Assembly (NCBI GenBank): GCA_028712695.1
Contig: JAQTQZ010000035.1
Coordinates: 1-36,298 of the forward strand
Source of the DNA: Methylovulum sp.
Lineage (GTDB): Bacteria; Pseudomonadota; Gammaproteobacteria; Methylococcales; Methylomonadaceae
Length of the DNA: 36,298 bases
Direction of reading: 5' to 3'
The notes beneath the pieces were generated by a model that had not been told where the DNA came from, searched no databases, and worked only from the letters and a program-made list of their open reading frames with translations. A program made the position numbers and the translations under genes. This document shows positions 1 to 29,321 of this stretch, in pieces; the first letter of the stretch is position 1; each line of letters starts with the position of its first letter.

Positions 1-378
1 CCCTGTATCGTCCACATGGCAAGGAATCCATTGCGGTTTGTTTCCTGGAAAGGCCGGAACCTTATTGCCGCAGACCCCAAGAAAATTTACCAATCCATCA
101 CGGTTGCCGGGGCCGAAAAGGAACTTGAAGCCTTTGCCCAAGCTTGGGACGGCAAATACCCGCCAATCAGCCAATCCTGGCGTAATCACTGGCCTAACCT
201 GATTGCTTTTTTTGATTATCCTGATGAAATCAGGAAGATCATTTGTACCACTAATGCCATTGAATCCGTCAACAGCGTGGTTAGGAAGGCGACCAACGCC
301 AGGAAAACATTCCCTAATGGCCAATTGGCAATGAAAGTCATTTATCTGGCTATAGGGGGCGCTTCGAAAAAATGTCCA
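1..378 (+). pseudogene. IS256-family (mutator-type) transposase, C-terminal fragment
   Basis: The frame is open from the first base, so the 5' part lies outside the window. The fragment reads CIVHMARNP near its start, then SQSWRNHWPNLIAFF and IRKIICTTNAIESVNSVVRK, which are the conserved C-terminal blocks of IS256-family DDE transposases. The family normally continues after a KKWTMP-like motif for about 30 more residues. Here the frame breaks right after ASKK, and the sequence runs almost at once into the terminal inverted repeat, so the end of the gene has been lost to a small deletion plus frameshift. The open frame continues to base 633 only by reading antisense through the end of rmuC. 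The element is probably dead, although the missing 5' part cannot be judged. Confidence 0.85.
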
Positions 379-379
379 T

Positions 380-407
380 GCCTTTACACAGATTTTTTTA
401 CACTCTC
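380..407. repeat. Right terminal inverted repeat of the IS256-type element
   Basis: This 28-base AT-rich stretch contains TTTACACAGATTTTTTTACA. Its reverse complement begins GAGAGTGTAAAA, the look of IS256-family ends as I remember them. It lies at the 3' edge of the transposase fragment and resembles the candidate left repeat at 34744-34771. The insertion boundary is therefore near base 407, about 55 bases beyond the stop codon of rmuC. Confidence 0.55.
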
Positions 408-461
408 CGTGCCCCACCCACACTACGCACTAGGCTGGGCTTGTTGCCCGTCCCATAATAC

Positions 462-2078
462 TTATTCGGCATCTCCCAACAACCCAATCGTTCCGGTCTC
501 ATCACCAATCTCCAACACCCCCACATCGCGCAATTTCCGCTCCATCGCCTTAGTCCGCGTTTCTTTCAATTTTTCCAGCGAGCCGGAGGCGGTGGTCAGT
601 TGTTTGTGCACTAACGCCAATTGGTCTGAATAACTGGCGAATTCGGTTTTGACTTCCGCCAGCACTTTCCATACTTCACTACTGCGTTTTTGTACCGCGA
701 GTGTGCGAAAGCCCATGTGCAAGCTGTTCAACAAAGCCGATAGCGTGGTCGGGCCGGTGATGGTGATGCGGTATTTGCGCTGGAGCAGTTCAAACATGTG
801 CGGATGCCGTAACACCTCGGCAAACAGGCTTTCAACGGGTAAAAACATGATCGCAAAATCGGTGGTGTGCGGCGGGTCGATGTATTTCGCGCTAATGTCT
901 TTGGCAAAACTTTCGATGGCTTTGAGCAGTATTTTTTGGGACTGGTCGATTTTAAGCGGTTCGGCTTCTTCATAAGCCTGCAACAGTATCTGGTAACTTT
1001 CTAACGGGAACTTGGAATCCATCGGCAACCAGACAGTTTTTTCATCGGACTTGCCGGGCAATTTGACGGCAAACTCGACATTCGCTTGGCTGCCTTGCTT
1101 GGTGGCGACATTAAGTGAATATTGCTCCGGCGACAGGATTTGTTCCAAGATATTGCCCAGTTGGTATTCGCCCAAGATGCCGCGCGTTTTGACATTGGCC
1201 AATACTTTTTTCAAATCGCCGACGCCAATCGCCAGCGTCTGCATTTCGCCCAAGCCTTTGTGGACTTGTTCCAGCCGGTCGCTGACTTGTTTAAACGATT
1301 CGCCCAGCCGTTTTTCCAGTGTGCTTTGCAGTTTTTCATCGACGGTTTTGCGCATTTCAGTCAATTGCTGGGTGTTGTCTTCGCGGATTGAGCGCAATTG
1401 TTTTTCAATCGTGTCGCGTATTTCGGTGATGCTGGTTTTGGCCTGCGCGGTGGCGTCGCTTTGTTGTTTGTTCAAATCGGCGAATTTTTGGCTTAATTGC
1501 CCGCTGAAGCCGTTGATGCTTTCGGAAAATTTGCTTTCGAACGACTTGAGCCCGTCATTGAGTTCTTTACGGTTGTCTTTGGCATCGTTGCCGATGCGCT
1601 CTTCAAAGCTATCCAGTTTGGCGACGGTTTTGTCCCTGAATTCATCCTGTTTTTTGTTCAAGGCTTCGCTGGAGGCGTGGAATGAGGTAATGACCGTTTG
1701 TTTGAAATCGTTGGAATGGCTGATCAGCTTTTCCGACAAATCATTTAACGCGGTTTTAAACAAATCCAGTTGCTGGTTTTGGGCATGGCTGTTTTCGGTG
1801 ATCCGGTTCAGCAACGTGTCTTGCAAGTTCTTAAAGACTTCGTGGGTTTCTTTACGGTTTTCAAAGCCCATGTCGCGCAATTCTTTGCGGGAGTCTAAAA
1901 AACCTTGGTTCAACGTGTCTTCATTTGCTTGCAATAGGCGGATCAGCTCATTTTGCAACGGTTCTGGCGGCTTGTCCGTCAGCTTGTTGATACGTTTTAG
2001 GATAAAAAACAGTGCCATCAGCACCAGTAGCAGCAGGACACACGCAATTGCCGTGGCTATTAAGAGGGGGTCAGTCAT
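462..2078 (-). CDS. rmuC: DNA recombination protein RmuC
   Basis: RmuC-family protein of 538 residues, thought to act as a nuclease-related factor that limits recombination at inverted repeats and stalled DNA. Residues about 4-28 form one strongly hydrophobic N-terminal membrane anchor. A long charged helical stretch rich in Gln, Lys and Glu (about 60-270) looks like a coiled coil. The C-terminal half carries the RmuC domain, with GILGEYQLGNILEQIL and later WLPMDSKFPLESYQ and FAIMFLPVESLFAEVL. I chose the ATG at 2078 (MTDPLLIA), which puts the anchor at the very N-terminus. A TTG 11 codons upstream is possible but less likely. The gene follows fhs on the same strand, separated by a strong hairpin. 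Its 3' end abuts the IS256 relic without visible damage. Confidence 0.93.
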   Translation of the reverse strand: MTDPLLIATAIACVLLLLVLMALFFILKRINKLTDKPPEPLQNELIRLLQANEDTLNQGFLDSRKELRDMGFENRKETHEVFKNLQDTLLNRITENSHAQNQQLDLFKTALNDLSEKLISHSNDFKQTVITSFHASSEALNKKQDEFRDKTVAKLDSFEERIGNDAKDNRKELNDGLKSFESKFSESINGFSGQLSQKFADLNKQQSDATAQAKTSITEIRDTIEKQLRSIREDNTQQLTEMRKTVDEKLQSTLEKRLGESFKQVSDRLEQVHKGLGEMQTLAIGVGDLKKVLANVKTRGILGEYQLGNILEQILSPEQYSLNVATKQGSQANVEFAVKLPGKSDEKTVWLPMDSKFPLESYQILLQAYEEAEPLKIDQSQKILLKAIESFAKDISAKYIDPPHTTDFAIMFLPVESLFAEVLRHPHMFELLQRKYRITITGPTTLSALLNSLHMGFRTLAVQKRSSEVWKVLAEVKTEFASYSDQLALVHKQLTTASGSLEKLKETRTKAMERKLRDVGVLEIGDETGTIGLLGDAE

Positions 2079-2137
2079 GTGTAAGGGATGATTTGGTGCA
2101 AAATGAGGCAAATTAACAGGGGAATTACCAATAGCGT

Positions 2138-2170
2138 AGACCTGGCAGGTTTTTGAAACCTGCCAGGTCT
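2138..2170. terminator. Perfect 15-bp hairpin between fhs and rmuC
   Basis: AGACCTGGCAGGTTT and its exact reverse complement flank a three-base loop (TTG). The stem-loop lies about 30 bases after the fhs stop. It has no long T-run on the minus strand beyond the T residues in the stem, so it could slow RNA polymerase, protect mRNA ends, or be a dispersed repeat of the REP or MITE kind. The structure is certain; calling it a terminator is inference. Confidence 0.55.
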
Positions 2171-2198
2171 TACTGGCTAGGGACTAACTAAAGTTTCC

Positions 2199-3872
2199 TT
2201 AAAACAACCCCGATATGACGCCATTGTCATCAATATCAATCCGTTCTGCGGCGGGCACTTTCGGTAGGCCCGGCATGGTCATCATGTCGCCGGCGATGGC
2301 GACAATAAAGCCGGCGCCATTGGCTAGCCTGACCTCGTTGATTTCTACCGTGTGCCCTGAGGGTGCGCCCTTGGCGCTAGGGTTGGTTGAAAATGACATC
2401 TGCGTTTTTGCCATGCAAATCGGGAAATGGCCGTAATCGCTTTGCCAAGCGGCCAATTGCGCTTTGACTTTGGCGTTGGCGGTGATATTGCCCGCCCCGT
2501 AAAGCTTGGTGGCAATGGCTTCGATTTTTTCCCACAGCCCCAAGTTTTCGTCATAGACATAACTGAATTCCGGCTCGCGCCCATCAACCAAGTCAAGCAT
2601 GGTTTGCGCCAGTTGCTCCGCGCCCGCGCCGCCTTGCGCCCAGTGCTTGCAAAGCACGCTGGTTGCGCCGATTGCTTGGCATTTGTCTTGCAACAACGCC
2701 AGTTCGGCTTCGGTGTCGAAAGTGAAATGGTTGATAGCCACCACGCAAGGCAGGCCGTAATGTTGGGTGATGTTGTGGTAATGGCGTTCCAAGTTGGCAA
2801 AGCCTTGTTCCAATGCGGTCAAGTTTTCTTGGTTTAACGCGTCCTTGGTGACGCCGCCGTGGAATTTCAGCGCCCGTACTGTGGCGACCAGCACTACCGC
2901 CGAAGGTTTTAGGCCGGACATGCGGCATTTGATGTCGATGAATTTTTCGGCACCCAAGTCGGCACCGAAACCGGCTTCGGTCACCGCGTAATCCGCCAGC
3001 TTCAGGGCGGTTTTAGTGGCGGTCACCGTGTTGCAGCCATGGGCGATATTGGCGAATGGGCCGCCGTGGATAATGGCGATGTTGTTTTCTAAAGTTTGCA
3101 CCAGATTGGGCTTGATGGCGTCTTTCAACAAGGCCGCCATAGCCCCGTGCGCTTTCAGGTCGCTGGCATAAACGGGGGTCACTTTGTCGGATTTGTAGCC
3201 GATGACTATCCGGCCTAAGCGTTCTTTCAAATCGGCGCGGCTGGTGGCCAAACATAAAATCGCCATCACTTCGGATGCGACCACGATGTCATAGCCGTCT
3301 TCGCGCAAGTAACCGTTGGCGGCGCCGCCCATGCCCACGACGATGTTGCGCAAGGCGCGGTCGTTCATATCCACGACGCGCTTCCATTGGATGCGGCGCG
3401 GGTCTATGTCCAGTTCGTTGCCGTGGTTGATGTGGTTGTCGATGAGGGCGGACAGCAGGTTGTGCGCCACGCCGATGGCATGGAAATCGCCGGTGAAGTG
3501 CAGGTTGATGTCTTCCATCGGCACGACTTGGGCATAACCGCCGCCCGCCGCGCCGCCTTTGACGCCAAAGCATGGGCCTAGTGACGGCTCGCGCAGGCAG
3601 ATGATGGTTTTTTTGCCCAGCCGGTTCATGGCATCGCCAAGACCCACCGTGGTGGTGGTTTTGCCTTCACCGGCGGGGGTCGGGCTAATCGCCGTCACTA
3701 AGATCAGTTTGCCATCGTCTTGGTCTTTTAAGCTATTGACGTATTCCAAAGAGAGCTTGGCCTTAAAATGGCCATAGGGTTCGAGATGTTCGGCGGCTAT
3801 TTTGTAGTTTTGTCTGGCCAGGTCAATAATAGGCTGCATCGTAGCCTGTTGGGCGATTTCTATATCAGACAT
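2199..3872 (-). CDS. fhs: Formate-tetrahydrofolate ligase
   Basis: Cytosolic enzyme of 557 residues that joins formate to tetrahydrofolate using ATP, giving 10-formyl-THF for the one-carbon pool. The family P-loop [12 protein letters not shown] is at residues 64-75, followed by [20 protein letters not shown] and the formate/THF-site block [17 protein letters not shown]. The length is that of the usual bacterial enzyme. The start is supported by an AAGGAATG ribosome site about three bases before the ATG. In a methylotroph this enzyme would link formate to folate-bound assimilation, but that depends on the host. The gene stands alone on the minus strand, ahead of rmuC. Confidence 0.97.
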
Positions 3873-4009
3873 TTACATTCCTTAAGGTGCTGATGTTTTA
3901 GGAGGTTTGTTAGGGATGGGGATCGCGCTAACGGTTCTTGAATTGCGGATGCCACCATTGTAAATGTTCAGGCTGTTTGTGTCTTGCCAGATGCGTATTC
4001 AGGGCAAGG

Positions 4010-5805: not shown

Positions 5806-7002
5806 ATGCAAAAAACAGTCACTGTTAAACTAGACACCGGCACGCTCCATCTTAAGTTGAAGCCGGGGCGTATCCCGCTCGACCGATTACTGGGCTTTGC
5901 CGCCCGCATCAGCAGCAAACGCAAGTTTTTGCTGGTCAGCAAAATATTGGGCAAGCATTATCCGGTGTCACCCAAAATGATGCGCTGGTCTTACCGTGCG
6001 TTGGCGCGATTGGTGCTGGACTGCGGCGCAGGCAGCAGTTCGTTGTGGATAGGTATGGCGGAAACCGCCACCGGACTGGGTTATGGCGTGTTTGCCGAAG
6101 CATGTGGGGCGGGGGTGCAGAACGCGCTATTTATGCAGACCACCCGCTATCATCTGGATGGCGTGGCGCGGCTGGCGTTTGATGAAGCACATAGTCATGC
6201 TACTGACTTTTTTCTGTATTATCCTGAGCATCCCGATTACCGGCGGCAGTTTTTAAGCGCTGAAACGCTGGTGCTGATTGATGATGAAATCAGTACCGGC
6301 AGGACTTTTTTGCGGCTGATTAATGCCTATCAAGCGGTTAACCCTAATCTGCAAAAAGTGTTTATTGTCAGTCTGGTGAATTTTGCCCATCTTGATGACC
6401 GCGCGTTGTTGGAGGCGCAAGCCGGTGTGGCGGTGGAATGGCTGTGTTTTCGGGAAGGTTTATTGGCCTTTGAAGACGGGCAAAATACGGCGCTCGACAA
6501 TATCGTGGTCAATGTGTCCGGCAATGATGCGTGTAAAAAAGCGTTGTTGGCCTGGCCGGGCCGTTTGGGTATCAATGCGCCGATCCAACTGGAAGGCGGT
6601 ATTGTCGATGCGTTTTTGCAACTGACCGCCAGTATAGATGACGATGCTCGCCCGATACTGGTGTTAGGCTCCGGTGAATGCAATGCCCCGGCTTATTTGC
6701 TGGGGTGTAAGCTGGAAGCCCAAGGTTTTAACGTAAAAGTGCAAAGTACAACGCGCTCCCCCATTCACCAAGGTAATGATATTAAGCAGGTTTGCCAGTT
6801 TGAGGATAACTACGGGGACGGCATTGCCAATTTTATTTATAACCTGAATCCTGAGGATTACCGGGAAATTATTCTGTGCCATGAAACGCCGCTGTGCGCA
6901 GCGCTGCTAGAGCGCTTAGACGCATGGCAAGCCGTCAGCGCACGTTTTGAACTTAACCCTAACGATAGACACCATGCAAAGTTATATTTTTTTAGACCTT
7001 GA
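5806..7002 (+). CDS. Ter-operon phosphoribosyltransferase (PRTase_2) with TRSP domain
   Basis: First gene of the Ter operon, 398 residues. The N-terminal two thirds match the PRTase family tied to Ter loci: RKFLLVSKILGKHYPV at residues 39-54, and the PRPP-binding loop LIDDEISTGRT at 157-167. The C-terminal third (about 275-398) fits the TRSP domain, named for a conserved Thr-Arg-Ser-Pro that is visible here as TTRSPI. The family is predicted to transfer ribose-5-phosphate from PRPP onto a base-like acceptor while building a nucleoside-like compound, but the substrate is not known. No good ribosome site precedes the ATG. The gene overlaps the HAD gene by 29 bases, implying coupled translation. 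Confidence 0.85.
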   Translation: MQKTVTVKLDTGTLHLKLKPGRIPLDRLLGFAARISSKRKFLLVSKILGKHYPVSPKMMRWSYRALARLVLDCGAGSSSLWIGMAETATGLGYGVFAEACGAGVQNALFMQTTRYHLDGVARLAFDEAHSHATDFFLYYPEHPDYRRQFLSAETLVLIDDEISTGRTFLRLINAYQAVNPNLQKVFIVSLVNFAHLDDRALLEAQAGVAVEWLCFREGLLAFEDGQNTALDNIVVNVSGNDACKKALLAWPGRLGINAPIQLEGGIVDAFLQLTASIDDDARPILVLGSGECNAPAYLLGCKLEAQGFNVKVQSTTRSPIHQGNDIKQVCQFEDNYGDGIANFIYNLNPEDYREIILCHETPLCAALLERLDAWQAVSARFELNPNDRHHAKLYFFRP

Positions 7003-7729
7003 CGACACCTTGTTCCAAACACTACGAAAATGCACGCCTGGCACCGATAGCACCGCGTTGCAGGCGCGGGCGTTTTTGCCGGATGGCACCCCTAATTCAT
7101 TTGCCACACGCAAACAACAATGGTTGTGGCAATGGCTGGCAAAAGGCTTCAAGGTTGTGCCGGTGACGGCGCGCGATGTGCAGGCGTTTTATCGGGTCAA
7201 TTTACCGTTTCAAGAAGAAGTGGTGCTCAATCACGGTGCGGTTATTTTGGATAAACAGGGGGTGATTGATACCGTCTGGATGGAAAGGATGCGCCAAGAA
7301 TTACCGCTATACCAAGAAAAATTGTTCGCACTCTGGGAAACGGTTGAGGCGTATTGCCATCTTCATAACGGCTATAAACCGCGCTTGGTCAATGATTTTG
7401 ACAACACGTGGTATGGCGTCATCAAACACAGCGACGGCACCGAAGCGACGCTGAAAAAGTTGTTGGATGAAAAGATCAAGCCGCATCCGCATATCCTTGA
7501 CGGCAGTTTGTATTGGCACATCAACGGCAACAACCTTGCCATATTGCCGCGCATCATCACTAAAGAAAATGCGGTCAGCTATCTGCTGGATAGTTATAAA
7601 CGGCAACATCCCGATGTTTTGACATTCGGTGCGGGCGATAGCCGCACCGATGCGCCCTTTTTAGCGTTATGCGACTATGCGCTGATCCCTAAAAACACCC
7701 AATTGTTTAACGCGATGGTGACGGCCTAA
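6974..7729 (+). CDS. HAD-superfamily hydrolase of the Ter operon
   Basis: Soluble phosphatase-type enzyme of 251 residues. Motif I is DLDDTL (Asp8 and Asp10, nucleophile and acid/base). VTARD is the motif II region, and GAGDSRTDAPF near the C-terminus is motif IV with the magnesium ligands. I chose the ATG at 6974 because it places motif I right at the N-terminus, as in the family; a start 27 bases upstream would add nine unrelated residues. It begins inside the preceding PRTase gene, and its stop overlaps the next start by one base (TAATG). By context it probably dephosphorylates an intermediate of the Ter metabolite pathway. The substrate cannot be read from sequence. Confidence 0.87.
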   Translation: MQSYIFLDLDDTLFQTLRKCTPGTDSTALQARAFLPDGTPNSFATRKQQWLWQWLAKGFKVVPVTARDVQAFYRVNLPFQEEVVLNHGAVILDKQGVIDTVWMERMRQELPLYQEKLFALWETVEAYCHLHNGYKPRLVNDFDNTWYGVIKHSDGTEATLKKLLDEKIKPHPHILDGSLYWHINGNNLAILPRIITKENAVSYLLDSYKRQHPDVLTFGAGDSRTDAPFLALCDYALIPKNTQLFNAMVTA

Positions 7730-8823
7730 TGGCGATATTAATGCCGCCCAGCGGTAGTTACGCCTCCGATGACGTCAGGTTTTTGCTCACGCCGATTAGC
7801 CTGCCGGACACGCCGGTCGCCGCTAAAGAAGCGTTAATCCAATCGGGCCAAAAACATTATTCGCAACTGTTGTCCCATGAGTCGCTGCCGACTGACGCGT
7901 ATTTGGCGTTGTTTCATCAGGCGATGGCGGCTAACAAAGCGCGTGTGGCAGAGCATGTCTGGACATTGGCCGGGCGTATTTTGGCAACCCGCCCGCACGG
8001 CATCACGCTGGTGTCGTTGGCGCGGGCCGGCACACCGGTTGGCGTGTTGCTTAAACAGGTGCTCAAGCGCCATTTCGACACCGAGGCGCCCCATTATTCC
8101 ATTTCCATCATTCGGGATGTCGGTATCGATGCAAATGCGTTGCGCCATATTGTCCGGCAGCATGCGCCGGAGACGTTGGTTTTTGTTGATGGTTGGACAG
8201 GAAAAGGCGTGATTGCCGGACAATTGGCCGATAGTTTGCAAGATTTTAGCCGGAGTGATAGCGTATTTATTCCCGCTGAATTGTACGTGCTGACCGATTT
8301 GTCAGGCTGTGCGGCGGAGGCGGCCTCGTCCGAGGATTACCTGATCCCCTCGTGCATTTTAAACGCGACGGTTTCGGGCTTGGTCAGCCGCTCGGTTTAT
8401 GATGAAGGGATAATGGCGGCGGGCGATTTCCACGGCTGTGTTTACTACGGGCAATTTAAACCGCATGACTTATCGCGCTATTTTGTTGATGAAATACTCG
8501 CTAGCGTTGCGCTTATTAGCCACGACCGCAAAAATAGCCCGGCGGTTGGGGTGGACCGGCAACACCTGCAATACGATTCCCAGCGCTTGTTGCAACAACT
8601 TGCCGTGCGTTATTCTGTAAGCCATGGACATTATATTAAACCCGGGATAGGTGAGGCGACCCGAGTGCTTTTGCGCCGCGAAGCCAAGTTGCTGTTGTTA
8701 CAAGATTTGGCTGCAGAAGCCACGTTGCATTTGCGTTGGCTGGCGGAGGCCAAGTCGGTTCCGGTCGTTGTCTGCGATGATTTGCCGTACCGCGCCGTGG
8801 CGCTTATTAAAGAGGTATTATGA
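7729..8823 (+). CDS. StiP-type phosphoribosyltransferase with C-terminal Pelota-like RNA-binding domain
   Basis: Second PRTase-type enzyme of the operon, 364 residues. SYASDDVRFLL near the start, VSLARAGTPVGVLLKQ at about 95-110 and the PRPP-loop-like LVFVDGWTGKGVI at about 150-162 match the StiP/PRTase_1 family (once called a cysteine protease). The last 80 or so residues (YIKPGIGEATRVLLRR to YRAVALIKEVL) look like the Pelota/L7Ae-type RNA-binding domain that this family carries in Ter loci. Its presence hints that the pathway touches RNA, but this is unproven. The stop overlaps the next start by four bases (ATGA). Confidence 0.85.
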   Translation: MAILMPPSGSYASDDVRFLLTPISLPDTPVAAKEALIQSGQKHYSQLLSHESLPTDAYLALFHQAMAANKARVAEHVWTLAGRILATRPHGITLVSLARAGTPVGVLLKQVLKRHFDTEAPHYSISIIRDVGIDANALRHIVRQHAPETLVFVDGWTGKGVIAGQLADSLQDFSRSDSVFIPAELYVLTDLSGCAAEAASSEDYLIPSCILNATVSGLVSRSVYDEGIMAAGDFHGCVYYGQFKPHDLSRYFVDEILASVALISHDRKNSPAVGVDRQHLQYDSQRLLQQLAVRYSVSHGHYIKPGIGEATRVLLRREAKLLLLQDLAAEATLHLRWLAEAKSVPVVVCDDLPYRAVALIKEVL

Positions 8824-9770
8824 TGACTATACAGTTGCCTGTCTTGGCAAAAGACTTTTCACCGTGGCAGTTGGGTGCGCCGCTTTATATGCCTGCGCAC
8901 CGTTTTGATTTGACGGCGATTGCCAATGGTGAAAAATTGCCCGGATTGCGTTCGATGATTTTTTGCACCGAAGATGCCGTTGCTTGCCATGAGATTGACA
9001 GTAGCTTGCGGCATTTAGGCTTATGTTTGCAAGGTTTTGAAGACACACCCGAACGCTTCCGCTTTATCCGCGCTAGAAACCCTGAAATTTTGGCGCGTTT
9101 GCTTGATTTGCCCGGCATTGAAAAAATCGACGGTTTTGTCTTGCCAAAATTCACTGAAAAAGTATTCCATGCCTATTTTGACCAATTGCAGGGGACTGCA
9201 TTCAAAGTCATGCCCACGTTGGAAACCCACGAGGTGTTTGATTATGCCGCGATGTGCGCCCTGCGGGACGGTTTATTGCAGGATGCTATTTTGCCGTCTG
9301 TGTTGATGCTACGGATAGGCGGCAATGACTTGCTGAACCTATTGGGGATACGTAGACCCAAAGGCCTGACCCTGTATGAGACGCCGCTAGGCAATGTCAT
9401 TTCGCAACTGGTGACGGTCTTCAAACCCTTTGGCTTTCCATTATCCGCACCGGTGTTTGAATATCTGAACGACGATAAGACCCTGCAAAAAGAGATCCGG
9501 CAAGATTTAGCTTACGGCTTGACCGGCAAAACAGCCATTCATCCGACGCAGATACCGCTAATCGAAGCGGCTTACGCCATTGACGAGGAGGATTATCAAA
9601 TGGCGCAGAGCCTGACGGCAGAGGAAGCGGAGGCGGTTTTTAGGATGCACGATGCGATGTGTGAAGTCGCGACCCACCAGCGTTGGGCGGTTGATCTTAT
9701 CAGCCGTGGGCGGTGTTATGGTGTTAATATGTCGGCTTCATTGAAGGAATGTGCTGGGCTATCCGTTTAG
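8820..9770 (+). CDS. TIM-barrel C-C bond lyase, HpcH/HpaI-CitE type, of the Ter operon
   Basis: Protein of 316 residues related to citrate lyase beta chain and HpcH/HpaI aldolases, in the subgroup found in Ter operons. Visible signatures are IFCTEDAV (equivalent of the LEDAV metal-site motif in CitE), GFVLPKF, a LRIGGNDLLNLLG strand-turn region and GKTAIHPTQIPLIEAAY near the C-terminus, which is the IHP...Q motif of CitE-like lyases. It should make or break a carbon-carbon bond next to a carboxylate in the Ter pathway. AGAGG precedes the doubled ATG at 8820 and 8823, either of which could serve. Translation is coupled to the preceding PRTase gene. Confidence 0.86.
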   Translation: MMTIQLPVLAKDFSPWQLGAPLYMPAHRFDLTAIANGEKLPGLRSMIFCTEDAVACHEIDSSLRHLGLCLQGFEDTPERFRFIRARNPEILARLLDLPGIEKIDGFVLPKFTEKVFHAYFDQLQGTAFKVMPTLETHEVFDYAAMCALRDGLLQDAILPSVLMLRIGGNDLLNLLGIRRPKGLTLYETPLGNVISQLVTVFKPFGFPLSAPVFEYLNDDKTLQKEIRQDLAYGLTGKTAIHPTQIPLIEAAYAIDEEDYQMAQSLTAEEAEAVFRMHDAMCEVATHQRWAVDLISRGRCYGVNMSASLKECAGLSV

Positions 9771-9798
9771 TTGTTTGGCAAACAAAAAAGGGGGGAAG

Positions 9799-10992
9799 GT
9801 GAATAGCAGAATTGATTTGGTTGCGGGTCAAAATTGTCCGCTTTCGACAACAGGGCTGCATGTTTCTGTCAGTCATGGGGCGTCGCCAACGGGTTTGACG
9901 GTTGATGTCAGCGCTTTTTTGCTGGATGCGGCCGGCAAAGTTGCCGGGGATGAAGATTTTATTTTTTTCAACCAACCGATACGGAGCGACCAAGGCGTTG
10001 AATTGGATATTGCCCAAAGCCGGTTTACGTTTCACCTTGACCGCTGTGCGCCGCGTATCCAAAAAATCGCCTTGACCCTCACTATTTCGGATGGCTTGTC
10101 AAAAGGGCAAAGTTTTAGCCTGCTGAAAAACGTCAAAGTGTTGGTTAAAGACTTTCTGACGGGCTTTGAACTGGCCTATTTTGCGTTGGATACGTCGGCT
10201 AACAAAGAAACGGCGCTGATTGTCGGCGAGCTCTACCGGCATCGGGATAAATGGAAGTTTCGGGCGGTTGGTCAGGGCTTTATTGGCGGTTTGCAGCCCT
10301 TGGCGGAATTCTACGGCGTGGATGTTGGCGAAGGCGAAGCGGGTGCAGAAGCCAAGCCTGAACCTGCTACCCCGTCCGCAAATAAAATTAATCTCAGCAA
10401 GGTCACGTTGGAAAAGAAGGGGCAGTCCATTTCTCTGGAAAAACAGCCCGGCGGCTTGGGCGAAATTTCAATAAATCTAAACTGGAATGCGACGCCGGTA
10501 AAGTCACTGGGCTTTTTAAAGCCGTCATCAGCCGGTATCGACTTGGATCTGGCTTGTCTTTGGGAATTGAATGACGGCACTATCGGTGGTGTCCAAGCGT
10601 TGGGCGGGCATTTTGGCTCATTACATCAGTTTCCCTTTATTGAGTTGGATCAAGATGACCGTAGCGGGCAGTCCATAGGCGGCGAAACGTTGCGTATTAA
10701 TGGCGGTCGTTGGCAAGAATTCCGGCGTATTTTGATTTTTACCTTTATCTATGAAGGCGTGCCTAACTGGTCGCATGTCGATGCGGTGGTCACCATCAAA
10801 AGCAATAACCAACCCTCTATTGAAGTCCGGCTTGATAGCCACCGTAATGACCAGTTTATGTGCGCCATCGCGATGCTGGAAAATATCAATAATCAACTAC
10901 GCATCACTAAACTGGTCGATTATTTTGCCGGTCACCAGCAACTTGATCAGGCGTATGGCTGGGGCTTAAATTATGTTAAAGGCAGTAAATAA
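9799..10992 (+). CDS. Tellurium-resistance TerA-like protein with two TerD-type domains
   Basis: Protein of 397 residues with two beta-sandwich TerD-type domains joined by a Pro/Ala/Glu linker near residue 175. The first opens IDLVAGQNCPL; the second opens VTLEKKGQSISLEK and includes AGIDLDLACLWEL, whose Asp pair matches the calcium-binding motif of TerD domains. Length and layout resemble TerA. TerD-family proteins are known for tellurite and phage resistance and are thought to be metal-dependent sensors or scaffolds at the membrane. I chose the GTG at 9799, after the AGGGGGG ribosome site, because family members begin just there. A GTG at 9751 would add 16 unrelated residues inside the preceding gene. 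Confidence 0.88.
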   Translation: MNSRIDLVAGQNCPLSTTGLHVSVSHGASPTGLTVDVSAFLLDAAGKVAGDEDFIFFNQPIRSDQGVELDIAQSRFTFHLDRCAPRIQKIALTLTISDGLSKGQSFSLLKNVKVLVKDFLTGFELAYFALDTSANKETALIVGELYRHRDKWKFRAVGQGFIGGLQPLAEFYGVDVGEGEAGAEAKPEPATPSANKINLSKVTLEKKGQSISLEKQPGGLGEISINLNWNATPVKSLGFLKPSSAGIDLDLACLWELNDGTIGGVQALGGHFGSLHQFPFIELDQDDRSGQSIGGETLRINGGRWQEFRRILIFTFIYEGVPNWSHVDAVVTIKSNNQPSIEVRLDSHRNDQFMCAIAMLENINNQLRITKLVDYFAGHQQLDQAYGWGLNYVKGSK

Positions 10993-11027
10993 CCACACCA
11001 CAAACCACATTCATAACGGAGAACACG

Positions 11028-11480
11028 ATGAGTTTCGACAATTTCCTTAACCAATTAAAAACTAAAGCCAATGAGTTAAAAACAGAGGCGTTAAAATTTA
11101 AAAACAAAGATTTTCTTAATGCCGCGATGGCGGGGTCGGCATTGATTGCCATGGCCGACGGCAGTGTCAGTTCGGAAGAAAAACAGAAAATGATCAAATT
11201 TATTGAAGGTAATGACGCGCTGTCGGTTTTTACCACCAGTGACGTCATCAAAGCCTTTCAAGATTTTGTCGGGCAACTGGAATTTGATAAAGACATCGGT
11301 GAAGCCAAAGCCTATCAGGCATTAGGTAAAATGAAGCCTAATGTCGAAGCCTCGCGTTTATTGATACGGATGATTATCGCTATTGCCGCTTCGGACGGGA
11401 ATTTTGATGTTTCCGAAAAAGCGGTGGCAACAAGAATAGCCAGGGAACTGGGGCTTAATCCAGCGGACTTTGAACTGTAA
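11028..11480 (+). CDS. terB: Tellurium-resistance protein TerB
   Basis: Protein of 150 residues, the usual TerB length, all-helical in pattern. It carries two matching acidic motifs, MADGSVSSEEKQKM and ASDGNFDVSEKAV, the pseudo-symmetrical TerB metal-binding repeat, and ends LGLNPADFEL much as enteric TerB does. TerB is cytoplasmic and in other bacteria binds the membrane partner TerC; no terC is present in this window. An AACGGAGAACACG ribosome site precedes the ATG. It lies 35 bases after the TerA-like gene and is the last gene of the operon. Confidence 0.93.
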   Translation: MSFDNFLNQLKTKANELKTEALKFKNKDFLNAAMAGSALIAMADGSVSSEEKQKMIKFIEGNDALSVFTTSDVIKAFQDFVGQLEFDKDIGEAKAYQALGKMKPNVEASRLLIRMIIAIAASDGNFDVSEKAVATRIARELGLNPADFEL

Positions 11481-12315: not shown

Positions 12316-14453
12316 AACCACCGATCAACCTTTCTGTGCTGACTTTGTTCGGCCTGATTTTGCTGTCGTTACAGTTAATGAGTTCGGCCACGCAGGAATC
12401 GTCAGAGCTAGGGGAAATGTATTTTTGGCTGCTGGTGGTTAACGCGTCAGGGTCGGTGGTGTTGTTATGGCTGGTCGGTGCCAATATTTACACACTGACC
12501 AAGCAATTAAAAAAGCGTGAAGCCGGCTCTTTGCTGACGACGCGGATGGTGTCATTATTTGTTGTGCTGGCTTTGGCGCCGGCAGCGATTGTCTTTTATT
12601 TCTCAATGCAGTTTTTACACCAAGGCATTGACAGTTGGTTTAATGTTGAAATAGACCGCGCTATGGAAGATGCGTTGGAATTAAGCCAGTCCTCATTAGA
12701 CCAGCGGATGCGCTGGCATTTGAAGCAAACCCAGCAATTGGCGGCAACGCTGGAAAGCGCGCCAGCCAATTTGGTTGCGCTGGAAATGGAAAACCTGCGC
12801 AGACTTTCCGATGCGTCGGAAATGACACTATTCTCACGCCCCGGAAAAATTATCGCCTCCAGCAGCATTAATCCTGGTGATATTTTGCCTAATTTGCCCG
12901 ATGAAAATATCTGGTTGCAGTTACGCCAGAATAGCAATTATGTCGCGTTAGATCCGGTACGTGAAAATGAGTTGATGATACGGGTGATAGTCACCCTTAA
13001 GGGAAGTGAGCCTGAATATCTGCAGGCGCTTTATCCGGTGCCGGTGCGCATGGCCGATTTGGCGGATTCGGTGGAATTTGCCTTTTTACGCTATCAGGAA
13101 ATGGGCTTTTTACGCCATTCATTAAAATTAAGTTTTTCTCTGGTCTTGTCATTGGTGCTGCTGATGAGTTTGCTAGCGGCGATATGGGTGGCTTTTATCA
13201 GTATCCGCTCCATTATTGCGCCGGTAAAAGCGTTGGTTAAAGGGACGCAAGCAGTTGCTTCCGGACATTACGACCAGCAATTGCCGGTTATTGCGCAGGA
13301 TGACTTGGGTTTTTTGGTCGAGTCATTCAATGAGATGACCCAACGCATCGCCAGTGCGCGGGATGAAACCCGAATAGCCAGTGTTGAGGTGGAAAACCAA
13401 CGGGCTTATCTGGAAACTATCTTGGCCAATTTAACCGCTGGCGTCATTAGTTTCGATTCCGTTTATAGGATACGCACAGCAAATCAAGCGGCGTACCGGA
13501 TTTTCCATATCCCCGTTAACCAATTTATCGGCCATACGCTGCCAGCGCTTGTCCAATCGGCGCCTGAATTGGTTGAGCCTTTGAAATTAATACAGCGCCT
13601 ATTGGTGCAGGCCGATGATATTTGGGAGCAGCGCATTGCTTTTTTAGGCCATAATGGGCGGCAGGAATTATTGTGTCGTGGTACCCCGCTCTTTTCCCAA
13701 GAAGGGCTGCGGGTGGGGGCGGTCGTAGTATTTGACGATGTGACCGACTTAATCCAGGCGCAAAAGAACGCCGCATGGGGCGAGGTGGCGCGGCGTCTGG
13801 CGCATGAAATTAAGAACCCGTTGACACCTATCCAGTTGTCGGCAGAGCGTCTGCAACATAAGTTGGCTGATAAGCTGGATACGGCTGATGCGTCTATCCT
13901 GCAGCGTTCGACGACAACCATTGTGCAACAGGTTGAGGCGATGAAGGAAATGGTCGATGATTTCTCGGAATATGCCAAACCTTCGAAAAAACAAACGGTG
14001 GCTATTAATTTGGCCGCATTGGTGCAGGAGGTGCTGGTGCTTTACGGATTAAAATCCGGCGTTAAATTTAACGCCCATTATGAAAGTGGCTATTTAATGA
14101 TAAACGGCGATCCCGTAAGCATCCGCCAGGTGCTGCATAATCTGATTAAAAATGCGTTGGAAGCCATAGAAGATAAAGGGGTTATTGAAATTAATTTGCA
14201 TAGGGTGCAAAAAAACAGCACGGACTTTATCGAACTTGCCTTTTATGATGATGGGCCTGGCATTAAAGAAGGGCAAATAGAGAAAGTATTTGAGCCCTAC
14301 GTCACGACCAAAGCCAAAGGGACTGGCTTGGGGTTGGCGATTGTCAAAAAAATTCTTGAAGAACATGGCGGGGCTATTTGGGTCGATACTAGCCGCACAG
14401 TGGGTGCAGGTTTCATTCTTCAATTTCCTGCTTATACGCTTAATACACTGTAA
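12297..14453 (+). CDS. ntrY: NtrY-type sensor histidine kinase
   Basis: Membrane sensor kinase of about 718 residues. Two hydrophobic segments lie near residues 10-30 and 42-65, another pair flanks a periplasmic sensing region (about 85-105 and 275-300), then come a HAMP linker (IIAPVKALVKGTQAVASG), a PAS domain and the kinase core. His503, in RRLAHEIKNPLTPIQLSAE, is the phosphorylation site. The N box is NLIKNALEAI, and DDGPGIKEG and GTGLGLAIV form the ATP lid. The start at 12297 is inferred; upstream in-frame codons lie deep in the previous gene. It would phosphorylate the NtrX encoded seven bases downstream. The natural signal (nitrogen, redox or envelope state) is not visible in sequence. 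Confidence 0.92.
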   Translation: MALEKIKPPINLSVLTLFGLILLSLQLMSSATQESSELGEMYFWLLVVNASGSVVLLWLVGANIYTLTKQLKKREAGSLLTTRMVSLFVVLALAPAAIVFYFSMQFLHQGIDSWFNVEIDRAMEDALELSQSSLDQRMRWHLKQTQQLAATLESAPANLVALEMENLRRLSDASEMTLFSRPGKIIASSSINPGDILPNLPDENIWLQLRQNSNYVALDPVRENELMIRVIVTLKGSEPEYLQALYPVPVRMADLADSVEFAFLRYQEMGFLRHSLKLSFSLVLSLVLLMSLLAAIWVAFISIRSIIAPVKALVKGTQAVASGHYDQQLPVIAQDDLGFLVESFNEMTQRIASARDETRIASVEVENQRAYLETILANLTAGVISFDSVYRIRTANQAAYRIFHIPVNQFIGHTLPALVQSAPELVEPLKLIQRLLVQADDIWEQRIAFLGHNGRQELLCRGTPLFSQEGLRVGAVVVFDDVTDLIQAQKNAAWGEVARRLAHEIKNPLTPIQLSAERLQHKLADKLDTADASILQRSTTTIVQQVEAMKEMVDDFSEYAKPSKKQTVAINLAALVQEVLVLYGLKSGVKFNAHYESGYLMINGDPVSIRQVLHNLIKNALEAIEDKGVIEINLHRVQKNSTDFIELAFYDDGPGIKEGQIEKVFEPYVTTKAKGTGLGLAIVKKILEEHGGAIWVDTSRTVGAGFILQFPAYTLNTL

Positions 14454-14460
14454 AAATACG

Positions 14461-15822
14461 ATGAACAAACAAAATTTCCGCTTGTTAGTGGTTGATGATG
14501 AGCCTGATATTCGCGGCTTGGTTAGCGAAATTCTTGAAGATGAAGGCTATCAGGTCGCTATGGCAGACAACGCAAGCAGTGCCAAGGCATTAAAAAAATC
14601 GACTGCTCCTGATCTTATCCTGTTGGATATTTGGATGCCCGATACCGATGGCATCACGCTTTTAAAAGAATGGGTGGCAGAAGATGCCATGTTATGCCCG
14701 GTGATTATGATGTCGGGCCATGGTTCTGTAGAAGCGGCCGTTGAAGCGACCCGTCTGGGCGCTTATGATTTCCTCGAAAAGCCCTTGTCGATGGCGAAAT
14801 TATTGCTGATTGTAGCTAGGGCTCTGGAAGCAAGTAATCTGCAACGGGAAAATACGGGGCTTAGGCAGCAGTTGGCCGCTGACATTGAGCCAGTTGGTAA
14901 AAGCGCGGCGGTTGCCAGAACTAAAGACCAGTTAAAGCGGTTGGCCCAGCATGATACGCGGCTGCTTTTGGTTGGTGAAGCGGGCGTTGGTAAAGTGCTT
15001 TATGCCCGGTACTTGCACAATCACAGTGTGCGCCGTGACGGGCCGTTCATTAGCGTTGCCGTGGGCAGTATCTCGCCAGAAAATTCTGCGGTGGAGTTTT
15101 TTGGTAAAGAATATGATGGGAAAGTCTATCAGGGTTTGTTAGAGCGGGCGAATAGGGGGGTGTTGTTTTTGGGTGAAATTGGCGGCATGGACAAGGAAAC
15201 CCAGTTGCGCTTGCTCAGTGCGTTGCAGTCGCACTCTTTTTTGCGGGTGGGAGGTAGTGAGGCGGTGCGTGTTGATGTCCGTATTATTGCCTCAACGCGG
15301 GTTCCGCTTGAGGAGGAGGTTAAGGCGGGGCGTTTCAGGCAAGATTTGTACTATGTGCTAAACGAGGTTGCGATCACAATTGAACCCCTTAGAAATCATA
15401 GTGAAGATGTGCCTGCCTTGTTGGGTTTTTATGTCGATTATTTTGTCAATCAGGATAACCTGCCGTTTCGGCGGTTTTCCATGTCCGCACAAAACTTTTT
15501 ACGTAACTACAGCTGGCGCGGCAATGTGAGGGAATTAAAAAATTTAGTGCAACGTTTAATGATTTTAGGGGTTGGAGAGGATATCGAGTTGGATGAGGTC
15601 AAATCTGCCTTAGGTACTGTCAGCACCGATTCGCCTAATGCGCCCACAGTGCCTGATTTTTTTAACTTGCCTTTAAAAGATGCCCGCGATCATTTTGAAA
15701 AAGCCTATTTGGAATATCATCTTGAGCGCGCCGGTGGCAGTGTGGCAAAACTATCGGCAACGGTAGGTATTGAGCGGACGCATCTATACCGTAAATTACA
15801 CGCATTGAACATTAAGCTGTGA
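14461..15822 (+). CDS. ntrX: NtrX-type response regulator with degenerate AAA+ domain
   Basis: Regulator of 453 residues: receiver domain (1-120, phosphorylation site Asp56 in LLDIWMPD), AAA+ domain (about 145-375) and Fis-type DNA-binding helix-turn-helix (about 405-453, SVAKLSATVGIERTHLYRKL). The receiver and DNA-binding parts look intact. The AAA+ part does not. The GAFTGA loop that contacts sigma-54 is missing (FFGKEYDGKVYQ is in its place), the Walker B aspartate is Gly238 (LFLGEI instead of LFLDEI), and the arginine in DLYYRL is Val299. The protein probably binds DNA under NtrY control without driving sigma-54 promoters. The true start is the ATG at 14461; the longer frame begins inside ntrY. 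Confidence 0.9.
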   Translation: MNKQNFRLLVVDDEPDIRGLVSEILEDEGYQVAMADNASSAKALKKSTAPDLILLDIWMPDTDGITLLKEWVAEDAMLCPVIMMSGHGSVEAAVEATRLGAYDFLEKPLSMAKLLLIVARALEASNLQRENTGLRQQLAADIEPVGKSAAVARTKDQLKRLAQHDTRLLLVGEAGVGKVLYARYLHNHSVRRDGPFISVAVGSISPENSAVEFFGKEYDGKVYQGLLERANRGVLFLGEIGGMDKETQLRLLSALQSHSFLRVGGSEAVRVDVRIIASTRVPLEEEVKAGRFRQDLYYVLNEVAITIEPLRNHSEDVPALLGFYVDYFVNQDNLPFRRFSMSAQNFLRNYSWRGNVRELKNLVQRLMILGVGEDIELDEVKSALGTVSTDSPNAPTVPDFFNLPLKDARDHFEKAYLEYHLERAGGSVAKLSATVGIERTHLYRKLHALNIKL

Positions 15823-15839
15823 TTTAAGGATGGGTAAAA

Positions 15840-15857
15840 AAACAGCAATTGCTGTTT
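15840..15857. terminator. Short palindrome after ntrX
   Basis: AAACAGCAATTGCTGTTT is a perfect 18-base palindrome, preceded by A residues and followed by T-rich sequence, 18 bases beyond the ntrX stop. It may end transcription weakly before the rplM promoter. A perfect palindrome also suits a dimeric regulator, so the role is open. Confidence 0.4.
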
Positions 15858-15882
15858 CTTGAAAGGTGTTGATAAATAAACC

Positions 15883-15911
15883 TTGAAAAAAATAATAAAT
15901 TTTAGTAGAAT
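15883..15911 (+). promoter_or_regulatory. Sigma-70 promoter of rplM-rpsI
   Basis: TTGAAA and TAGAAT are separated by exactly 17 bases in an AT-rich stretch. The -10 box ends 42 bases before the rplM start. This is a close match to the sigma-70 consensus, as expected for a strongly expressed ribosomal operon. Confidence 0.75.
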
Positions 15912-15953
15912 TCTCGCTCTTTTATTGAGCCTTTACAGAAAGACTAAGTAACG

Positions 15954-16382
15954 ATGAAAACATTTAGTGCAAAACCAGCAGAAGTTAAGCGTGATTGGTA
16001 CGTAGTTGATGCAGAAGGCAAGACGCTAGGCCGCCTTGCTTCTGAAATTGCACGTCGTCTTCGCGGTAAACATAAACCAGAATACACGCCACACGTTGAT
16101 ACCGGCGATTATATTATTGTGGTGAACGTCGAAAAAATCGGTGTGACCGGTAACAAAGAAAATGACAAGCTTTATCATCACCACACTGGTTATACGGGGA
16201 ATTTAAAAACCGTTAGCTTAGGGAAGTTAAGAAAAACGTTCCCTGACCGTATTCTTAATACGGCTGTTAAAGGCATGTTACCCAAAAATCCACTAGGACG
16301 CGCTATGTTCAAGAAATTGAAAGTGTATGCCGGCCCTGAACACGATCATCAGGCTCAACAGCCAAAAGTTTTAGAATTATAA
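15954..16382 (+). CDS. rplM: 50S ribosomal protein L13
   Basis: Early-assembly protein of the large ribosomal subunit, 142 residues, the usual bacterial length. Recognised by [19 protein letters not shown] near the N-terminus (here [12 protein letters not shown]), the [20 protein letters not shown] block and [20 protein letters not shown] towards the end. It is followed after 11 bases by rpsI, the standard L13-S9 pair. A well-formed sigma-70 promoter lies upstream, and the whole pair ends at a strong terminator. Confidence 0.98.
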
Positions 16383-16393
16383 GCGAGTAGACC

Positions 16394-16786
16394 ATGGCAG
16401 CAGCTCAGTATTACGGAACCGGTCGTCGTAAAAGCGCGGTAGCACGCGTTTATGCAACTAAAGGCACCGGAAAAATTACGATTAATAAAAAAAGCCTTGA
16501 AGAATACTTTGGTCGGAAAACGGATCAAATGGTTTCACGGCAACCACTGGAATGTGTCGAAATGGAATCCGTGTTCGATGTCAATGTGGTTGTTAAAGGT
16601 GGTGGCCCGTCTGGCCAGGCTGGAGCTATTCGTCATGGCTTGACCCGCGCATTAATGGAATACGACGAAACATTGCGTCCTGCGCTAAGAAAGGCAGGGT
16701 TTGTGACCCGCGATTCACGCATTGTCGAACGTAAAAAAGTTGGCTTGCACAAAGCAAGGAAACGCCCGCAATACTCAAAACGTTAA
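16394..16786 (+). CDS. rpsI: 30S ribosomal protein S9
   Basis: Small-subunit protein of 130 residues whose C-terminal tail reaches the decoding centre. [15 protein letters not shown] at the N-terminus, [19 protein letters not shown] in the middle and the basic C-terminus [11 protein letters not shown] are diagnostic. It is cotranscribed with rplM and ends just before an intrinsic terminator. Confidence 0.98.
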
Positions 16787-16967: not shown

Positions 16968-18188
16968 ATGGCTCTTTATGTCTATAAATTTGGCGGCACG
17001 TCAGTAGGTACGGTTGAGCGTATCAAAGCAGTCGCTGAAAAAGTAAAAAAAGCCCATGAATTGGGCGATCAGATTGTCGTTGTCGTGTCGGCAATGAGTG
17101 GGGAAACTAACCGTTTGATCGGTTTGGCAAAACAAATACAGGCGCAGCCAACGGAGCGGGAGCTGGATGTTTTAATATCGACTGGCGAACAAGTTACGGT
17201 GGCCTTGCTAAGTATGGCGTTGCATGAGCTGGGCTGTGATGCGTGCTCGTACACTGGTGGGCAGGTGAAAATCTTGACTGACAGCAGCCATACTAAGGCG
17301 AGGATACGCAAGATAGACGATGCGCGTATCCGAGCTAGCCTCAAACAAGGTAAAGTCGTGGTGGTGGCGGGTTTTCAGGGTGTGGACGAGGATGACAATA
17401 TCACCACTTTGGGGCGAGGTGGTTCGGATACGACGGCGGTGGCTTTGGCGGCGGCATTAAAAGCCGATGAATGCCATATCTATACCGATGTTGACGGCGT
17501 TTATACCACCGATCCACGGGTGGAGCCTAAAGCGCGTCGATTGGATCGCATTACCTTTGAGGAAATGCTGGAAATGGCGAGTTTGGGTTCAAAGGTTTTG
17601 CAAATCCGCTCGGTCGAATTTGCCGGCAAATACAATGTTGCATTGCGGGTTTTATCATCATTTACAGAAGGGTGTGGCACACTCATTACTTACGAGGAAT
17701 TATCAATGGAAAGCGCTTTGATTTCGGGGATTGCGTTTAATCGTGATGAGGCAAAATTGACTATCACCGGCGTGCCGGATTTGCCGGGAGTGGCGTTTAA
17801 AATTTTAGGCCCGATTGCCGATGCCAATATTGAAGTGGATATGATTATCCAGAATATTGCCGATGATGCGACTACCGATTTTACCTTTACCGTACATCGC
17901 AATGATTTTCAGCGGGCTAAGGCCATATTGACGCAGACCTGCGCCGAACTGGGTGCGCGTGCGGTAACTGACGATGACCGTATTGTTAAGGTGTCTATTG
18001 TCGGGGTGGGGATGCGTTCACATGCAGGCATTGCCAGCACAATGTTTAAAACACTGGCTGCTGAAGGTATTAACATCCGCATGATTGCAACTTCGGAAAT
18101 AAAAATTTCAGTGGTTGTTGATGAAAAATATCTGGAGCTTGCTGTAAGGGCTTTGCATGCGGCATTTAATCTGGATAAGGCTGAATAA
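16968..18188 (+). CDS. lysC: Aspartate kinase
   Basis: Phosphorylates aspartate, the first step towards lysine, threonine, methionine and diaminopimelate. The protein has 406 residues: kinase domain 1-245 with the ATP-site motif YKFGGTSVG (residues 6-14) and GRGGSDTTAVALA, then two ACT domains for feedback control by amino acids (LTITGVPDLPGVAFKILG and VSIVGVGMRSHAGIAS). Length and layout match the monofunctional pseudomonad-type enzyme. An ATG at codon 247, with its own ribosome site, probably produces a separate regulatory beta subunit. No lysine riboswitch is seen in the 181-base gap after rpsI. Confidence 0.96.
   Translation: MALYVYKFGGTSVGTVERIKAVAEKVKKAHELGDQIVVVVSAMSGETNRLIGLAKQIQAQPTERELDVLISTGEQVTVALLSMALHELGCDACSYTGGQVKILTDSSHTKARIRKIDDARIRASLKQGKVVVVAGFQGVDEDDNITTLGRGGSDTTAVALAAALKADECHIYTDVDGVYTTDPRVEPKARRLDRITFEEMLEMASLGSKVLQIRSVEFAGKYNVALRVLSSFTEGCGTLITYEELSMESALISGIAFNRDEAKLTITGVPDLPGVAFKILGPIADANIEVDMIIQNIADDATTDFTFTVHRNDFQRAKAILTQTCAELGARAVTDDDRIVKVSIVGVGMRSHAGIASTMFKTLAAEGINIRMIATSEIKISVVVDEKYLELAVRALHAAFNLDKAE
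17694..18188 (+). CDS. Internal translation start for a LysC beta subunit (in frame)
   Basis: GAGGA at 17694-17698 lies seven bases before an in-frame ATG at 17706 (MESALISG, residue 247). Translation from there gives a 160-residue protein made only of the two ACT domains, the known beta subunit of alpha2-beta2 aspartokinases in Bacillus, Corynebacterium and relatives. The spacing is better than that of most true starts in this window. Use in this organism is inferred. Start coordinate given is that of the ribosome site. Confidence 0.5.
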   Translation, partial: EELSMESALISGIAFNRDEAKLTITGVPDLPGVAFKILGPIADANIEVDMIIQNIADDATTDFTFTVHRNDFQRAKAILTQTCAELGARAVTDDDRIVKVSIVGVGMRSHAGIASTMFKTLAAEGINIRMIATSEIKISVVVDEKYLELAVRALHAAFNLDKAE

Positions 18189-18197
18189 TAGGTTGCG

Positions 18198-18235
18198 GCT
18201 TAGCCCCTTTAGCCTACCAAGCTGAGGGGCTAAGC
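18198..18235. terminator. Hairpin between convergent lysC and the small lipoprotein gene
   Basis: GCTTAGCCCCT and AGGGGCTAAGC pair perfectly over 11 bases around a 16-base loop. The position, between two genes that face each other, suggests a shared bidirectional terminator. Neither side carries a good T-run. Confidence 0.5.
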
Positions 18236-18257
18236 AATGTGCTCAGCAGGCGAGTTG

Positions 18258-18446
18258 TTAAATGGGGATGTCGTCTACTGTTTCGGCTGCTTTGTCAATT
18301 GCATCGTGTGCAGTATTGCCAACGCCGGGCACGATAGAAACAACCGCGCCGCTTAGGCGCATAGGTACGGAAGCTATTTTCGTCAACACGCAACCTTGTG
18401 AAGTGCAGGCAATAACTGCCAGTAGCACGGCATTTTTTAACTTCAT
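18258..18446 (-). CDS. Small DUF6726-like lipoprotein
   Basis: Lipoprotein precursor of 62 residues: a Lys-rich start, a hydrophobic helix and the lipobox SQGC at residues 16-19. The mature part contains PMRLSGAVVSIVPGVGNTAHDAIDKAAETVDDIP, a pattern I know from a family of tiny proteobacterial lipoproteins of unknown function (DUF6726). An AAGGATG ribosome site lies five bases before the ATG. It is transcribed against lysC. Confidence 0.72.
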   Translation of the reverse strand: MKLKNAVLLAVIACTSQGCVLTKIASVPMRLSGAVVSIVPGVGNTAHDAIDKAAETVDDIPI

Positions 18447-18620
18447 TTTTGCATCCTTTAGTTAATTAGAAACGAAGGGTTACAATAACCTATGCTGTGT
18501 AGTGCTGCAACGGGTGCGGCTGTTGTCAGATAGTTCGCCTTTGTGTGTTGCTAATTTGCCAGCCTGATACATCATTGCAATCATTGTTAATTAATATAGA
18601 TCTTTAAAGCGGGTGCGGTC

Positions 18621-19121: not shown

Positions 19122-19132
19122 TGAGGGGTGTT

Positions 19133-19852: not shown

Positions 19853-19869
19853 TTCCGGCGGCAACGCGG

Positions 19870-20235: not shown

Positions 20236-20369
20236 AGTCGAGAGGGGGGGCAGCAAATGGAATGCCACATTATAAGGCATTATAAATTACTGTGGGCAAG
20301 GTTGGCCGATAGGCCGTCAATAGCGCGTTCTATTGGCTTGCTGCTATGGATGCCGCTGGTTCAACAACT

Positions 20370-20398
20370 TCGACTCTATAATGACAATTTGTTATAAT
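20370..20398 (+). promoter_or_regulatory. Candidate promoter of gyrA
   Basis: TCGACT and a perfect TATAAT are 17 bases apart. A second TATAAT lies at 20377-20382 but has no fitting -35 box. The leader to gyrA would be about 120 bases. The AT-rich -10 region would suit supercoiling-sensitive control, as known for gyrA elsewhere, but this cannot be shown here. Confidence 0.5.
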
Positions 20399-24216: not shown

Positions 24217-24223
24217 GAATCAG

Positions 24224-29307: not shown

Positions 29308-29321
29308 GGGTTTTTACGTCG

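Follow-up and report, generated by a model that had tools for sequence, protein, structure and literature searches.

A Ter-associated enzyme operon in Methylovulum sp. with probable partner genes on two other contigs

Introduction

The Ter system, as presented in the accessible part of PMC7824862, includes the synthesis, by phosphoribosyltransferases (PRTases) together with HAD phosphoesterases, of nucleoside or nucleotide derivatives as signals of an incoming threat; TerC is placed in the membrane, and TerB and TerD may act as sensors. The accessible part of PMC8115787 presents the product of the biosynthetic cluster as only predicted and its link to TerC as unclear. No account of the product turned up in the literature that we searched, mostly without full texts. 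Here we analyze a run of six Ter-type genes, encoding a PRTase_2-TRSP protein, a HAD-family phosphatase, a StiP-PELOTA_1 protein, a CitE-like C-C bond lyase, a TerA-like protein and TerB, at positions 5,806–11,480 of a 36,298-nt stretch of DNA from Methylovulum sp. (assembly GCA_028712695.1, contig JAQTQZ010000035.1). This stretch, hereafter the window, is the entire contig C45 of a draft genome (coded G000; 3.79 Mb, 110 contigs), for which the assembly listing gives 2.44% contamination.

The gene set of this genome is like the Ter-associated biosynthetic module in combining PRTases and a HAD phosphatase with TerB, TerD and TerC (PMC7824862, accessible part), but unlike that module it is distributed over three contigs, the ATP-grasp gene and terD forming a second cluster and TerC standing apart. 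The Klebsiella ter locus, so far as the accessible part of PMC8115787 describes it, likewise has its biosynthetic cluster apart from an operon with terC and terD-type genes (terZABCDEF), although the two Klebsiella operons form one locus on opposite strands, whereas the parts in G000 are on different contigs. On plasmid pPNAP04 of Polaromonas naphthalenivorans CJ2 (NC_008760.1), where StiP is 54.3% identical to that of the window, the order is DUF475-TerD-TerD-TerD-ATPgrasp-PRTase-HAD-StiP-lyase-TerD family protein; unlike in G000, this is a single uninterrupted block followed by TerY-type genes, and its gene table, which is incomplete, lists no TerB. Methylobacter tundripaludum SV96 (L174) has the order TerD-TerD-ATPgrasp-PRTase_2-HAD-StiP-lyase-TerB, with a StiP that is 68% identical in the best segment; unlike the window, this locus is linked, and no TerA-like gene was found between its lyase and TerB genes. 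The founding analysis of the Ter-associated biosynthetic module is said to be that of Anantharaman, Iyer and Aravind in 2012, which reportedly also covers the C-C lyase.

Partner genes on other contigs

Very probably, the operon in the window encodes the core enzymes of the Ter-associated pathway, which is already known and predicted to yield a nucleoside-like metabolite, and the gene set is divided among three sites in the genome. We read it as an ordinary split instance of this predicted pathway in a methanotroph from the Methylococcaceae group. As originally predicted, the window itself contains neither an ATP-grasp nor a TerC gene: neither domain was found in the 20 window proteins scanned (a set that leaves out the open reading frames (ORFs) at 1–4000 and 14290–16786), and genome-wide searches matched both on other contigs. 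The suggestion that these partners might lie elsewhere was borne out. A profile search of the genome placed a Ter-type ATP-grasp domain (PF15632, an ATP-grasp family that Pfam assigns to the Ter biosynthetic pathway; expectation value (E) 2.2e-42) at C73:80876–81265, in a gene of 345 amino acids (aa) directly behind two terD genes (TerD E 1.2e-83 and 6.8e-56). This is the one ATP-grasp gene in the genome at E ≤ 1e-20, four further PF15632 matches being far weaker (E 1.5e-11 to 0.002). A TerC-family gene of the DUF475 type is on C81 (PF04332, E 2.5e-113; PF03741, E 1.4e-19) and gives the sole PF03741 match at E ≤ 0.001; no match to any of nine other Ter seed proteins was found in the surrounding 19 kb. 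The Ter set of this genome is thus spread over C45, C73 and C81, since the ATP-grasp gene sits in a second Ter cluster while TerC is present but alone. According to the original prediction, a second Ter cluster with both partners would make this an ordinary split locus; such a cluster was found for the ATP-grasp gene, with its two terD genes, and TerC stands apart from it. The split calls for no new biology, as every part is encoded in this one genome.

The genome has five TerD matches, that of the window included. At C110:701–3481 (L015), a TerD domain is fused before TerB_N-TerB-TerB_C, and the latter part matches PADLOC SngA (E 3.1e-94); this contig is 3.5 kb long, so that partners of the fusion cannot be seen. 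On the minus strand of C11 (L014:8772–10358), a TerD domain is fused to a transglutaminase-like domain, and a DUF29 gene adjoins.

Occurrence and gene order in the Methylococcales

We searched 201 genomes of the order, including the window's own, for StiP (E ≤ 0.001) and for PRTase_2, the lyase, the Ter ATP-grasp and DUF475 (E ≤ 1e-20). StiP was found in 59 genomes, PRTase_2 in 58, the lyase in 56, the Ter ATP-grasp in 51 and DUF475 in 95, and the PRTase_2, lyase and ATP-grasp sets were nested wholly within the StiP set. DUF475 was present in 58/59 StiP-positive vs. 37/142 StiP-negative genomes. In the controls, StiP, PRTase_2, the lyase and the ATP-grasp each matched one of 14 genomes, the same one in every case. 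Where a genome encoded the Ter ATP-grasp, its gene lay upstream of StiP on the same strand and contig, at 2–7 kb, in 34 of 51 cases, and on another contig in the other 17, G000 among them. A tblastn survey of a separate set of 80 named StiP loci found an ATP-grasp match nearby in 47; 15 of the 33 loci without a match had at least 20 kb of sequence. TerC was within the fetched neighborhoods (approximately 9 kb on each side of StiP, less at contig ends) of 9/59 StiP-positive genomes. The expectation that both genes usually accompany the Ter enzymes thus broadly held for the ATP-grasp, and TerC is usually not adjacent in this order.

Gene order was annotated for 82 loci, of which L196 and L198 were skipped, having no StiP label; the resulting 80 include the plasmid loci L170 and L171. 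In many relatives within the order, the genes form a common block, terD-(terD)-terD-ATPgrasp-PRTase_2-HAD-StiP-lyase-(terA)-terB. This block is broken before PRTase_2 in G000, G078, G088 and G158, between HAD and StiP in G149, G124 and G130, and into three parts in G082 and G198, where PRTase_2 is on a third contig. In G078, the two parts corresponding to those on C45 and C73 are again on separate contigs, and the DNA around both aligns with that of G000 at 79–88% identity over the larger pieces (74% in one piece). We scored a locus as split when the genes were on different contigs, and in some of the 17 split genomes (e.g., G048, G164, G183, G190, and G118) contigs end near the genes; the 10 changes between linked and split that Fitch parsimony requires are therefore an upper bound, with an ambiguous root state. 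For the window, we ruled out an artefact of contig edges, because non-Ter genes flank the operon on both sides and both the layout and the flanking DNA have homologous counterparts in G078.

In a tree of the StiP and ATP-grasp proteins of 51 genomes, which leaves out the eight StiP-positive genomes without an ATP-grasp, G000 and G078 are sisters with support of 1.0. Their grouping with G189, in which the block is linked, has a support of only 0.39, so the tree alone does not show the split to be derived. The linked form is widely found, including at Polaromonas, Aromatoleum, Janthinobacterium and Chromatiaceae loci, and for this reason we take it to be the older one; judging from these gene orders, the split is likely the later state and the linked block ancestral.

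These distributions bear on whether the C45 operon and the C73 terD-terD-ATPgrasp cluster could be independent systems with unrelated products. In both G000 and G078 the two clusters are on different contigs, each amid non-Ter genes, and eight genomes have the core without the ATP-grasp, as independence would have it. We nevertheless consider this very improbable, given that StiP is present in all 51 genomes of the order with a Ter ATP-grasp, in 34 of them downstream of it on one strand and contig, and that the linked block occurs far outside the order. That the enzyme genes co-occur even where the block is broken at different junctions argues instead for one shared pathway.

Several loci carry other genes within or between the parts of the block. 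In L083, L091, L095, L113 and L124, extra genes of approximately 350–440 aa and approximately 220 aa lie between the ATP-grasp and PRTase_2 genes; by eye, those of L083, L091 and L095 resemble an ATPase and its small partner in a nuclease or defence pair. AIM24-family proteins are encoded within the ter blocks of two relatives (L095:11797–12621 and L098:14842–15540), and in Aromatoleum a TIGR00266 protein is encoded between TerD genes.

Relatives without a Ter ATP-grasp

A number of observations weigh against reading the window as the core of one split pathway. Eight of the 59 StiP-positive genomes have no Ter ATP-grasp at E ≤ 1e-20, and one of them, G163, has StiP and DUF475 without PRTase_2, the lyase or the ATP-grasp in genome-wide searches. 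PF15632 is unspecific when applied loosely, matching 14/14 control genomes at E ≤ 0.1 and 1/14 at E ≤ 1e-20, and two further G000 proteins, in frames of 588 and 1091 aa, score above its cut-off at 45.5 and 29.9 bits. The Fisher p-value of 1.2e-39 for co-inheritance of StiP and the ATP-grasp treats genomes as independent, and its significance is overstated for that reason. The structural matches of StiP are weak, and six of its 11 matches in the Protein Data Bank (PDB) at E ≤ 0.001 are non-PRTases.

In the eight genomes without a Ter ATP-grasp, a permissive search returned weak matches only (best E 1e-06), several of them in frames of 1077–1094 aa, a size that on our reading suggests carbamoyl-phosphate synthase. 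With eight ATP-grasp proteins as queries, tblastn found no match in the StiP loci fetched from these genomes. In G148, StiP is on a 4.9-kb contig of a 240-contig assembly, and the lack of the ATP-grasp may for this reason reflect incomplete assembly. G037 (two contigs) and G064 (one contig) keep TerC, TerD, PRTase_2, TerA, TerB, HAD, StiP and the lyase, and G114 (two contigs) keeps TerC, TerD, PRTase_2, HAD, StiP and TerB, with no lyase found. In G163, by our reading of the translations, StiP (L132:8959–10065) is behind an ABC1/UbiB-type-kinase-like gene and before a radical-SAM-like gene.

Since G037, G064 and G114 keep the core operon (PRTase_2, HAD, StiP and mostly the lyase), the ATP-grasp step may be optional. 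We think it rather unlikely, however, that the ATP-grasp is an optional tailoring step which in the window's lineage has come under separate control with terD sensors, such that core and ligated products are separately timed. Comparing the genomes of one or two contigs that have no Ter ATP-grasp with complete ones could reveal the step that this enzyme performs, and these relatives are the more useful by-product of the analysis. That the window might instead represent a reduced Ter pathway able to dispense with TerC and the ATP-grasp ligase, an option raised in the original prediction, would fit the absence of both genes from the window and these three relatives, TerC-bearing as they are, but is hardly credible for G000, where it is already refuted, barring contaminant contigs, by the one ATP-grasp gene beside two terD genes and the one DUF475-type TerC gene, and G078 is arranged alike. 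A false lead is thereby removed, as the window is no stripped-down pathway.

Enzymes of the operon

In one split pathway, the two PRTases would join base-like substrates to phosphoribosyl pyrophosphate (PRPP), the HAD enzyme would take off the 5′-phosphate, the CitE-like lyase might shorten or build up a side chain of carbon atoms, and the ATP-grasp ligase could couple an acid with an amine or a similar group. TerD, TerA and TerB, at the membrane with TerC, would then read the product or the metal stress that it reports.

The window's PRTase_2, HAD, StiP and lyase proteins carry the common residue at every position conserved in at least 95% of the alignment rows, which count some genomes twice. 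PRTase_2-TRSP has a PRPP-loop motif at residues 156–165, in which D159, D160, E161, T164 and G165 are conserved, and by sequence the loop looks canonical. Its structure model has a predicted local distance difference test (pLDDT) score of 92.3, and 47 of the 50 PDB matches listed are titled as PRTases or PRTase-related, while the titles of the remaining three give no function. In the HAD protein, a DLDDT motif and a late GDS..D motif are conserved in at least 95% of 124 alignment rows. The solved relatives of the lyase are citrate lyase beta-like (best E 2.7e-05).

The Pfam name for StiP is that of a cysteine protease. Across 56 sequences, however, all four of its cysteines vary (C237, the most conserved, is retained in 48/56), and no cysteine protease is among the 50 PDB matches listed. 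The StiP model (pLDDT 94.6) has a guanine PRTase as its best PDB match (best E 9e-05). Of the 50 matches listed, 28 are PRTases or PyrR, and most of the remaining 22 are pyridoxal phosphate enzymes and sugar-isomerase-like proteins; all are weak, none having a template modelling score above 0.30 when normalized by query length. R99, G101, D154, T157, K159 and G160 are invariant, and we read these residues as belonging to the PRPP-binding and pyrophosphate loops. Compared with the PDB by sequence, StiP gave weak L7Ae-type matches only, in its C-terminal domain. StiP-PELOTA_1 weakly resembles PRTases and is probably an enzyme like them, its C-terminal domain being of an L7Ae/Pelota-like kind, and the StiP data speak against the database name “cysteine protease.” Its closest named relatives are from Methylococcaceae, Methylobacter, Crenothrix and a Methylovulum fragment, which makes an aerobic methanotroph of that group the most likely host.

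Layout and flanks of the operon

The six Ter genes that had been proposed are all present on the plus strand, each with a Pfam domain above cut-off (Table 1). In the ORF table, the PRTase_2 and HAD genes overlap by 29 bp if HAD starts at 6974 and by 56 bp if it starts at 6947, HAD and StiP overlap by 1 bp, and StiP and the lyase by 4 bp; the lyase and TerA-like genes overlap by 20 bp if the latter starts at the GTG at 9751, and a gap of 35 bp separates it from TerB. From this layout, the PRTase_2-TRSP, HAD, StiP-PELOTA and C-C_Bond_Lyase genes form a single operon-like run. The TerA-like protein had been called a double-TerD protein. Pfam recognizes TerD once, in its N-terminal part, and the C-terminal half is only weakly TerD-like, matching our own TerD profiles over short stretches with 19.4 and 10.0 bits.

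Table 1. Coordinates and Pfam matches (E) of the six Ter-type genes in the window.
Gene product	Position	Strand	Pfam match
PRTase_2-TRSP protein, 398 aa	5806..7002	+	PF15609, 3.5e-57; PF12500 (TRSP), 2e-16
HAD-family phosphatase, 251 aa from ATG (260 aa from TTG at 6947)	6974..7729	+	PF08282 (Hydrolase_3), 6.1e-07
StiP-PELOTA_1 protein, 364 aa	7729..8823	+	PF11202, 2.3e-98; PF15608, 4.8e-26
CitE-like C-C bond lyase (C-C_Bond_Lyase), 316 aa	8820..9770	+	PF15617, 2.3e-90
TerA-like protein, TerD domain N-terminal	9751..10992	+	PF02342, 2.8e-42, residues 21–188
TerB, 150 aa	11028..11480	+	PF05099, 1.3e-21

MsrA and an ORF with no Pfam match lie on one side of the operon, and a DUF4390 protein and an NtrY-like kinase on the other. 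Ten more ORFs at 16968–36141 are mostly of housekeeping types in the Pfam scan, and the scanned neighbors include, besides MsrA, DNA gyrase A, aminotransferases, an EPSP synthase with prephenate dehydrogenase, an S1-domain protein and FeoB. An IS66 TnpB-like match lies at 35365–36144, close to the contig end. A mobile-element locus is unlikely, because the scanned neighbors are mostly of housekeeping types, with this one IS66-type match.

Promoter and terminator scans of the window showed no clear excess over shuffled sequence (8 vs. 7.1 and 10 vs. 9.6), and tRNA and Rfam searches gave no matches. For the six operon proteins, NCBIfam returned below-cut-off matches only. In PADLOC, PRTase_2 alone of six window proteins matched, weakly, to two PRTase_III-A models, and in a viral fold library the single match at E ≤ 0.001 was a phage PRTase.

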